Source of the DNA: Phycisphaerales bacterium
Lineage (GTDB): Bacteria > Planctomycetota > Phycisphaerae > Phycisphaerales > SM1A02
Assembly: GCA_014238965.1 (NCBI GenBank)
Contig: JABAAC010000072.1
Span: 1 to 64,000 of the forward strand
Direction of reading: 5' to 3'
DNA length: 64,000 bases
Part shown: positions 55,571 to 59,165 of the stretch, one piece after another
Layout: each line of letters begins with the position of its first letter
Position numbering within the stretch: position 1 is the first letter of the stretch
Made by a program: the position numbers and the translations under genes
The notes under the pieces: generated by a model
Told to the model about the DNA's origin: nothing
Seen by the model: only the letters and a program-made list of their open reading frames with translations
Databases searched by the model: none

Positions 55571-56437
55571 ATGACTACGTTAGCTGCATCGATGACCCCG
55601 CCTCGGGCTGCATCTACTGAGCGAGATGTCTTGCGCGTTGGCGCGGTGCCGTACCTGAATGCGTGGCCAGTGACTTGGGGGCTTGGCAAACTCAGCAATT
55701 GGGCTACATCGTCCGCGGTACCGAGTGAGTTAGCCACGCAGCTCACATCAGGTGCTATTGACATGGCACTCGGATCATCAATTGATGCTATGCGCATCGA
55801 TCCAGCTCCCATTGTTTTGCCCGCTGCGCCCATCGCCAGCGACGGTCCAACATTAACGGTGAAAATTGCCTCGCGGGTGCCTGCTGAGCGTCTTAGGGCC
55901 CTCTACTGCGATACCGACAGTCATACGAGTGTGGCGCTTGCAACCATTTTGCTTCGCGAAGTGTGGGGGATTGATCCAGTGATTGAGTCATTTGACGCTC
56001 GCTGTCACAAAGGTGATTGGCCTGAGTCGGTGCTGCTCATCGGCGACAAGGTGATCACCGACCCACTGCCAGCTGACACATGGGCGTATGACATTGATTT
56101 GGGCGAAGTGTGGACTCGCACAACGGGCTTGCCCTTTGTGTTTGCCGTGTGGATGCTGCATCCGTCACGTGCGGATGAAGCGAACGCAGTATGCGCTGTG
56201 TTGGATCGTCAACAACGCGCCAACAGTATGCGGTTCGAATCGATGGTGGCGCACGGCGCCCGTGATCATGGCTGGCCAGTAGACCTCGCTCGGCGATATC
56301 TGTCGCAGCATCTGACCTATCGATTTGACGCGTCACATCGTGCGGGGCTGGAGCTTTTCATCGCGAAGTGCCGTGAGCACGAATTGGTCGATGCCGATCG
56401 AACGTTGCGCATGCACACTTGGCCCATGGGGGTATGA
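55571..56437 (+). CDS. mqnA: chorismate dehydratase, futalosine menaquinone pathway
   Basis: RVGAVPYLNAWPVTWGL, VPSELATQLTSGAIDMALGSSIDAM, VLLIGDKVITDP. Confidence 0.85.
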   Translation: MTTLAASMTPPRAASTERDVLRVGAVPYLNAWPVTWGLGKLSNWATSSAVPSELATQLTSGAIDMALGSSIDAMRIDPAPIVLPAAPIASDGPTLTVKIASRVPAERLRALYCDTDSHTSVALATILLREVWGIDPVIESFDARCHKGDWPESVLLIGDKVITDPLPADTWAYDIDLGEVWTRTTGLPFVFAVWMLHPSRADEANAVCAVLDRQQRANSMRFESMVAHGARDHGWPVDLARRYLSQHLTYRFDASHRAGLELFIAKCREHELVDADRTLRMHTWPMGV

Positions 56438-56444
56438 TCGATCG

Positions 56445-58049
56445 ATGCCGCGCCGTCCGTCGTTTCGGTCCAGTGCGATAGAAGACCTTAATCGGCAACT
56501 GGCCTTTGCGCCCCAAGCGGTGCAGCGAACGAGGTTGGAAGCCGCGGAATCGCTCATTCGATCGATTGATGCGAATCGACAGTATCCAATCGACTTTGTC
56601 ACTTTCAAGTTGACGGGGTATCGGCCCGACGACTCTGCGCAAGAGCACGTTGTCGGAACAATCCTTCGAGCAGATTTGGTGACCATGATTCAGGTGGCGT
56701 CTCGTTTGTGTCCGTTGGTGTGTGATGGTGAACGTGGGCATCCACTTGACGTAGATGCCGTGGCTGCTCGCTTGGGCTGTACGCGACGGTCGTTGCGGAC
56801 GCTTCGTCCACGGGGCCTCGTCTTCTGGTGGACCAGTCGATGCGGCCATCCACAGAAGCTTGGGTGTCCCCCTGACATGCTGGAGTGGTTCGCCCGTGAG
56901 ATGCAAACAGCTGCGCCCAAGCGGCTGGACAAAGCGCAGAGAGAACAGCTTGAAACGGCAGCATCAGCCTATATGGCAAGAGCAAGCACGCAAGTGACAC
57001 TTGCCGATGTTACTCGGCATGTCGCAGCAACGCAGCAGTTGGGCCCTGATGTTGTGCGCGGTGTGTTGCGGCGTGCAGTTGATGCAGGCCGAGTGAACTT
57101 GCCCCGGGCAAAGCGACTGCAGCGACGGGATGGTCGCTTGGCCTTGCGAGCGGTTCGACATGGCTTGCCAGTGTCGTCCATTGCGAGCCGTCTTTCGATC
57201 AGTGTTTCAAGCGTGCATCGGTCGCTCCAACGGGAGCGTTTGGCATTGTTCGTGCGATATCTGGCGCGGCCATGTATGGCTATCGACCCAACATCGAAGT
57301 TCGATGTACCTTCGGTTCCACCGCCACGGTTGAGGTGGGACTGCACGATGCTTCTGAATCCACCGAATACGTCCACTGTGATCAAAGGTGTCGGGACCAG
57401 TGAGGCCAACCTCAAAGCAATTGCAGCCTCCATGGGGCATTTGCAGTTGCTTGTCAAGGCTGCCGACCCCCGCGGATCCATCGATGCCTGGGCGGCGATC
57501 GATGCCAGTTTGATGGAACTCACGCGGCGTTGGTGGGGCGTGCTGGTTGGTTTGAGGCCATCGATCGAAGCAGGACTCAGTGGCTGGTCGGGCAAACCCG
57601 TGTCGGAGATTCCAACTGCTGTGATCAGTGCGCTTCTTCCAGGGCTCGTAGACGTCGCCATCGCCACACTCAGACGAGCCCAAGTGGGGGATGCCAAGCG
57701 GTTGCCAGATCGCACCCGCAGTGCGATTGATCGTGTGCTGATCAATCCAGCAACACACATTCAATCGCGGACAGCCCATACGCCTCAAGGCGTGTTTCTG
57801 CTTCGGCATACGCCGTGGCGATTGCTATTGCCGGATCCTCGCTGGGAGCGGGCGATTGGTCGGTTGTCGGAGTCTGACGCCGCGCTTGCAATGGAGCGGT
57901 TTGGTTTGCATGGTGCGTCATTACACAGTGCAACGCAGTGCGCCAAGGCACGCGGGTGCAGTGTGCAGGCGATTTCCGCTCGAACAAGTTGGCTGCGTGG
58001 GCAACTACACCACCACTCAAGGTCACTTCGCAACCTCCACGACAGTTGA
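56445..58049 (+). CDS. divergent sigma-70-like / HTH protein
   Basis: HTH-like SSIASRLSISVSSVHRSLQRERL and a C-terminal region-4-like segment ALAMERFGLHGASLHSATQCAKARGCSVQAISARTSWLRGQL. Confidence 0.55.
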   Translation: MPRRPSFRSSAIEDLNRQLAFAPQAVQRTRLEAAESLIRSIDANRQYPIDFVTFKLTGYRPDDSAQEHVVGTILRADLVTMIQVASRLCPLVCDGERGHPLDVDAVAARLGCTRRSLRTLRPRGLVFWWTSRCGHPQKLGCPPDMLEWFAREMQTAAPKRLDKAQREQLETAASAYMARASTQVTLADVTRHVAATQQLGPDVVRGVLRRAVDAGRVNLPRAKRLQRRDGRLALRAVRHGLPVSSIASRLSISVSSVHRSLQRERLALFVRYLARPCMAIDPTSKFDVPSVPPPRLRWDCTMLLNPPNTSTVIKGVGTSEANLKAIAASMGHLQLLVKAADPRGSIDAWAAIDASLMELTRRWWGVLVGLRPSIEAGLSGWSGKPVSEIPTAVISALLPGLVDVAIATLRRAQVGDAKRLPDRTRSAIDRVLINPATHIQSRTAHTPQGVFLLRHTPWRLLLPDPRWERAIGRLSESDAALAMERFGLHGASLHSATQCAKARGCSVQAISARTSWLRGQLHHHSRSLRNLHDS

Positions 58050-58120: not shown

Positions 58121-58711
58121 TCAACGCTTGGAGAACTGGAAGCGTTTGCGAGCTCCGGGCTGACCAGGCTTCTTGCGTTCCACTTTGCGTGGGTCACGTG
58201 TGAGGAAGTCGTGGTCACGCAACGTGGAATCCAGCGATGGATCGTAGTTCCGAAGCGCTCGGGCAAGACCAAGCACAATGGCGCCCGCTTGGCCGGTGTA
58301 TCCACCACCATGGATGTTGACGGCCACATCGACAGCGCCGGCCGTGCCGGTCGTCTTGAGGACATGGTTGATGTCGTTGTGGTCTCGCTCTTGTGAGAAG
58401 AATTCTTCGAGCGTACGTTTGTTGATGATGAAGGAGCCGGATCCGGCTTTGACGCGAACGCGGGCAACGGCGGCCTTTCGGCGGCCGGTACCCCAGAACC
58501 AGCCGCCAGCGGCCGGCTTGGTCACCACAGTTCGTTCGGTGATCGTCACTGGTGCAGCGGTTTTCGAGTCAGTCAATGTGACTTCGGCAGCTGGTGCTTC
58601 GACTGCAGGCTCCGCAACCGCAGGCATCTTTGCCTTGGGTGTATCTGGCGTGGCTTCGCTTGCAGCGGTACCGTTGTCGGCAGTGGCATCGTTCGTTGTC
58701 TCTTCGCTCAT
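58121..58711 (-). CDS. rpsI: 30S ribosomal protein S9 with long N-terminal extension
   Basis: FWGTGRRKAAVARVRVKAGSGSFIINKR ... LTRDPRKVERKKPGQPGARKRFQFSKR. Confidence 0.95.
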   Translation of the reverse strand: MSEETTNDATADNGTAASEATPDTPKAKMPAVAEPAVEAPAAEVTLTDSKTAAPVTITERTVVTKPAAGGWFWGTGRRKAAVARVRVKAGSGSFIINKRTLEEFFSQERDHNDINHVLKTTGTAGAVDVAVNIHGGGYTGQAGAIVLGLARALRNYDPSLDSTLRDHDFLTRDPRKVERKKPGQPGARKRFQFSKR

Positions 58712-58730
58712 CACGTCTCTTTGACTCCAG

Positions 58731-59165
58731 TCAGACGGCCATTGCAGCGGGTTGCTGCGCGTGATGCGGGTGATCGGTACCGGCATACACTTTGAGTTTG
58801 CTCATCATTTGTCGGCCAAGTCGGCTCTTGGGAAGCATGCGGCGAACGGCGTTTTCAACAACGCGTTCGGGATGCTTGGCAAGCACATCACCGACGGGAC
58901 GTTCACGCAGGCCACCGGGATATCCCGAGTAGCTCTGCACCATTCGTTGCTCCGCTTTTCTGCCGGTGAGCACGATCTTCTCAGCATTGGTCACGACGAC
59001 GAAGTCGCCACAGTCAACATGTGGCGTGTAATCGGCGCGATGCTTGCCCATCAGAACAGTTGCGATGGCCGTTGCCATACGACCGAGGATCTGTCCATCA
59101 GCATCCATGTGATGCCACGAACGATCCACGTCTTGGCGAGTACGGAATGTGGTTTGACGGGGCAT
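58731..59165 (-). CDS. rplM: 50S ribosomal protein L13
   Basis: WHHMDADGQILGRMATAIATVLMGKHRADYTPHVDCGDFVVVTNAEKIVLTGRK. Confidence 0.95.
   Translation of the reverse strand: MPRQTTFRTRQDVDRSWHHMDADGQILGRMATAIATVLMGKHRADYTPHVDCGDFVVVTNAEKIVLTGRKAEQRMVQSYSGYPGGLRERPVGDVLAKHPERVVENAVRRMLPKSRLGRQMMSKLKVYAGTDHPHHAQQPAAMAV

Follow-up and report, generated by a model that had tools for sequence, protein, structure and literature searches.

A sigma-70-derived gene beside mqnA in Phycisphaerales that has probably become another kind of DNA-binding regulator

An open reading frame at positions 56445-58049 (+) of the window, by which we mean the whole stretch of 64 000 nucleotides analysed, encodes a protein of 534 aa that almost certainly descends from a sigma-70 family factor of the Planctomycetota. 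Sigma factors are the proteins that direct RNA polymerase to the start of transcription. This one has probably left that role and now works, without forming holoenzyme, as a DNA-binding regulator with several helix-turn-helix (HTH) domains. A preliminary description had proposed a lineage-specific sigma-like regulator, which is supported in that the protein comes from a sigma factor yet is probably no working sigma factor now. The frame starts with ATG and lies directly downstream of mqnA as described, with a gap of 7 nt (mqnA ends at 56437) in place of the 8 nt given there. A genome search found one homologue each in 55 of 61 related genomes, nearly all of them open frames of ~490 aa or more, and this together with the conserved adjacency to mqnA makes the ~534-aa frame real and more than a chance one. 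The gene, its parts and its neighbours are as follows, with family labels (f1-f94) assigned automatically in a whole-genome comparison:

55571..56437, + strand: mqnA, directly upstream of the sigma-derived gene; it also adjoins the canonical sigma orthologues of family f5
56445..58049, + strand: sigma-derived multi-HTH protein, 534 aa, single copy, family conserved order-wide
56445..56729, + strand: N-terminal module, residues 1-95, with the pattern YPxDFVxFRITGYRP...VGxALxxDL; found in this family only and, among divergent members, conserved better than any other part
56730..56909, + strand: MerR/HTH_17-like winged helix, residues 96-155, corresponding to the N-terminal HTH of the preliminary description
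56910..57251, + strand: middle helical/HTH part, residues 156-269, including an HTH_23-like central HTH at residues 232-263
57252..57533, + strand: poorly predicted linker, residues 270-363, aligning with what precedes region 2 in canonical orthologues
57534..57749, + strand: degenerate sigma domain 2, residues 364-435, lacking the [DE]GN core-binding and FSTY melting signatures
57864..58010, + strand: degenerate sigma region 4, residues 474-522, with the fold kept and the RxRQxE recognition-helix signature absent
58121..58786, - strand: rpsI (S9), convergent downstream neighbour, followed by rplM; conserved in family f1

Identity to the window protein is 51% and 48% in its genus relatives and ~25-35% in most others. 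The named relatives are metagenome-assembled genomes of Phycisphaerales/Phycisphaerae and other Planctomycetota, and the proposed restriction to a lineage is borne out, since all relatives found come from Planctomycetota with a single exception. This is a contig titled Methylococcaceae bacterium, which carries a planctomycete protein of the family (L073:6001-6615) and is probably misbinned or mislabelled. Of the 53 genomes having both genes, 51 have mqnA as the immediate upstream neighbour on the same strand, f5 genomes with a canonical sigma protein among them, and in family f1 the common neighbourhood reads DEAD helicase, alr, mqnA, the sigma-derived gene, rpsI and rplM. Six genomes that keep the sigma-derived gene have no mqnA that we could find, and mqnA has apparently been lost repeatedly among such genomes; the alr and rpsI-rplM neighbours persist in some of the six. 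A role limited to menaquinone synthesis is therefore unsupported. The gene is probably co-transcribed with mqnA without depending on it. With 12 ordinary Sigma70_r2 genes, the window's genome does not depend on the gene described here for its supply of sigma factors.

All three segments singled out in the preliminary description, namely an N-terminal HTH, a central HTH and a C-terminal segment resembling sigma region 4, lie where it placed them in the frame, and each can be assigned. The N-terminal HTH matches HTH_17 in 16 of 20 family members (Pfam), and in the structure model it forms a winged helix with helices at residues 103-110 and 114-123 followed by strands at 128-131 and 138-141. The central HTH gives the sole Pfam signal in the window protein itself, as HTH_23 (4.7e-5) and as Sigma70_r4_2 (0.0012); both matches fall under the curated cut-off, and at 23.5 bits for HTH_23 against a cut-off of 24.6 the protein does not qualify as a member of single-domain HTH families (HTH_23, MerR). 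Profile and fold both identify the C-terminal segment as sigma region 4. Ahead of the winged helix, the N-terminal module (residues 1-95) is modelled at a pLDDT of about 80-97, and a fold search gave it no known fold, only weak matches to phosducin (E 0.014 or worse) that we take as chance. The linker is effectively unpredicted (pLDDT about 30-50); the stretch of canonical orthologues that aligns with it carries the patterns ExxLxxxYNxLKxRA ... IETDLRWA. Two frames of 381 and 379 aa (G185 C154:24620-25684 and G119 C93:33315-34388) have the N-terminal module fused straight to the sigma part without the two HTHs, which suggests that the HTH block is separable. A further family member, of 624 aa, has ~50 extra residues before the sigma part (L006:1501-3375, genome G029).

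Searched alone, the window protein returns generic HTH matches only, and its C-terminal half scores -0.7 bits against the canonical profile, which is no match. The sigma nature of this half rests on intermediates. In members of f5, in the same order, and in proteins from other orders and classes, the N-terminal half is the same and leads into unmistakable sigma-70 regions 2 and 4. Orthologues outside the order are canonical in this sense, as are five of the six f5 proteins inside it, and the canonical f5 orthologues match Sigma70_r2 at 1e-10 to 1e-11 and Sigma70_r4 at 1e-17 to 1e-20 (Pfam). Orthology with these sigma factors is indicated by the shared N-terminal half, the mqnA neighbour in f5 and the nesting of families in the N-terminal tree. 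Because canonical members in a profile find sigma factors trivially, the first PDB profile, which included them, was replaced by one restricted to divergent members (A4). This profile gave 69 PDB matches at E up to 1, of which the best 60 were all sigma factors, the top match (6.6e-8) falling in region 4. A second alignment (A6), of the C-terminal halves of nine canonical proteins, was made independently, and the divergent profile matched it at 98.6% (E 4.8e-16) over 269 columns. Foldseek searches with a model of the divergent members only agree, with 50 of the 50 PDB matches listed being sigma factors and SigA region 4 structures found at probability 1.00 and TM 0.70, while individual E-values are weak (0.05 or worse); the full-length model behaves in the same way. 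Thus the protein belongs to the sigma-70 family by profile and fold homology to domains 2 and 4, and the PDB matches listed contain sigma folds only, rather than the missing sigma 2/4 fold or unrelated HTH family that the preliminary description had named as evidence against its reading. The alignment is least secure where region 2 columns are assigned in the window protein, because the C-terminal half of this protein is at the extreme of the divergence.

The fold has been kept while the residues that define a working sigma factor have gone. We compared a divergent set of 55 proteins (families f1-f4 and f6, including the window protein) with a canonical set of 37. The [DE]GN core-binding signature of region 2.2 is present in 37/37 canonical and 0/55 divergent proteins, the melting signature FS.[YF] of region 2.3 in 36/37 against 0/55, and the recognition-helix signature R.RQ.E of region 4.2 in 35/37 against 0/55. 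Region 2.2 makes the main contact to the beta-prime coiled-coil, and regions 2.3-2.4 contact the -10 element (PMC4598750). The missing canonical region 2.4 noted in the preliminary description is indeed absent, and the 2.2 and 2.3 signatures are absent likewise. In family f6, represented by five genomes, region 4 is missing altogether. One f5 protein (G052) scores 184 bits against the canonical profile while the rest of f5 score 289-340 bits, which by sequence makes it an intermediate between the canonical and altered forms. Missing signature residues are no proof that core binding has been lost; with the core-binding, melting and -35 recognition residues all gone, 'sigma-like regulator' is the right description and 'sigma factor' probably not.

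Conservation has been reversed along the protein. Sigma domain 2 is the best conserved part of the canonical proteins, at 58% mean pairwise identity, with the N-terminal module among the lowest at 36%; in f1 the values are 25% and 41%, and in the divergent group the N-terminal half with its putative DNA-binding domains is now the best kept. Full length is nevertheless retained in f1-f4, across about 30 genera of f1. In five close pairs the divergent C-terminal half has dN/dS values of 0.06, 0.15, 0.11, 0.29 and 0.27, similar to those of the N-terminal half, showing that the altered C-terminal half is still under selection and kept for something. Estimates for the window's own genus are unreliable because its synonymous sites are almost saturated.

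A tree of the N-terminal half follows and nests the families, and an RpoB tree recovers the same families with f5 branching first. This agreement and the shared mqnA neighbour indicate that the gene has been inherited vertically and that the altered form is derived from the canonical one. The minimum number of losses of the sigma signatures is two on the RpoB tree (G052, and f6 with f1-f4) and three on the N-terminal tree. The AU test does not formally reject a single origin (p 0.069). In one genome used here (G034, L151) the rpoB match at C1:398940-402167 stops at model position 1094 inside a frame of 1829 aa, and the C-terminal piece (1189-1237) lies far off at C1:1180011-1180157 in a frame of 554 aa; this rpoB is rearranged, fused or misassembled. 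We are evenly divided on a broader scenario in which a sigma factor present across the phylum would have been turned into a non-sigma regulator in most of the order, on two or more occasions and in different ways, with f1-f4 keeping the region 4 fold but losing region 2 function, f6 dropping region 4, and one f5 genome part-way.

Loss of every signature tested, with selection retained, points to another kind of DNA-binding regulator. The ancestor would have been a planctomycete sigma-70 factor with the N-terminal module, winged helix and HTH ahead of sigma domains 2 and 4. Its present descendant would no longer form holoenzyme or melt promoters; similarity to HTH domains suggests that the N-terminal half binds DNA, so that the protein may bind specific sites through its winged helix and HTH and regulate transcription independently, as an ordinary DNA-binding factor does. 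The former sigma domains may have found a new use, either structural or in contacting DNA or protein. It is very improbable that the protein is instead an unrelated multi-HTH protein that has converged on sigma region 4. Such a protein would explain why the window sequence by itself finds only generic HTHs, but neither the existence of canonical sigma orthologues that share its N-terminal half and mqnA neighbour nor the profile match across 269 columns, and the canonical intermediates strongly disfavour it. Improbable too is a sigma part that is simply decaying, leaving the N-terminal half alone to matter: the better conservation of that half and the loss of region 4 in f6 fit this idea, yet it is rejected by the dN/dS values of 0.06-0.29 in close pairs, near those of the N-terminal half, and is at odds with the full length kept across about 30 f1 genera.

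The same selection on the C-terminal half, the sigma-2 and sigma-4 folds that remain in the model and the length kept in f1-f4 might also be displayed by a protein that still serves as a sigma factor, though with greatly changed core contacts and promoter specificity. The N-terminal DNA-binding half or a partner protein would then perhaps be needed for promoter opening, by analogy with the split SigO/RsoA pair. We consider this rather unlikely, given that none of the 55 proteins of f1-f4 and f6 retains any of the core-binding, melting or -35 signatures tested, that f6 is without the entire region 4, and that the sigma domains have fallen from the best to the worst conserved part. A sigma mimic is likewise an unlikely reading, in which the degenerate sigma part would titrate an anti-sigma factor and free the real sigma factor, as PhyR does for EcfG, while the N-terminal half senses or targets. 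PhyR provides the precedent of a correct sigma fold with degenerate promoter- and core-contacting regions (PMC8103513, PMC4598750), and the window's family has the same combination of sigma fold and degenerate contacts. However, the Pfam matches of the window protein include no receiver domain, and neither do the 25 families listed for 20 members of its family, the conserved neighbours compared (alr, mqnA, rpsI, rplM) include no anti-sigma gene, and a best-conserved part that is the putative DNA-binding half would be ill-suited to a pure titrator.

We compare the proposed ex-sigma regulator with known systems. With sigma-70 factors having a SigA-type region 4 (PF04542, PF04545), it shares the C-terminal domain order, the sigma-2 and sigma-4 folds and profile homology, but the family has ~270 extra N-terminal residues with HTHs, no match to sigma region 3 even in its canonical relatives, and lost signature residues in the window's group. 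The planctomycete orthologues with intact sigma domains (f5, f7, f9, f32, f73 and others) have the same N-terminal module, winged helix, HTH and length, with the mqnA neighbour in f5; they differ in their intact 2.2, 2.3 and 4.2 signatures and in having the sigma part as the best conserved region. Homology-based annotation as a sigma factor may be wrong across the window's group. ECF87-89, planctomycete sigma factors too, are described as N-terminally extended (cited in PMC8103513), but they are ECF factors, while region 4 of this family is of the SigA type. We found no paper on the family in the open-licence literature. To our knowledge, sigma factors that abandon the sigma role are rarely seen, PhyR being the best-known case. 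Proteins that keep a sigma fold but have stopped acting as sigma factors are a known kind (PhyR; PMC8103513), and the sigma-like domain of alphaproteobacterial PhyR resembles the family in keeping the sigma fold with degenerate core- and promoter-contacting residues (PMC8103513). PhyR joins an ECF-type domain to a receiver, whereas this family has a putative DNA-binding half at its N-terminus, and no receiver was found in it. The phylum is another difference from the PhyR case, and so is the survival of every stage: ancestral, intermediate and altered forms exist as orthologues at one genomic position, so that the steps from a sigma factor to something else can be read and tested.
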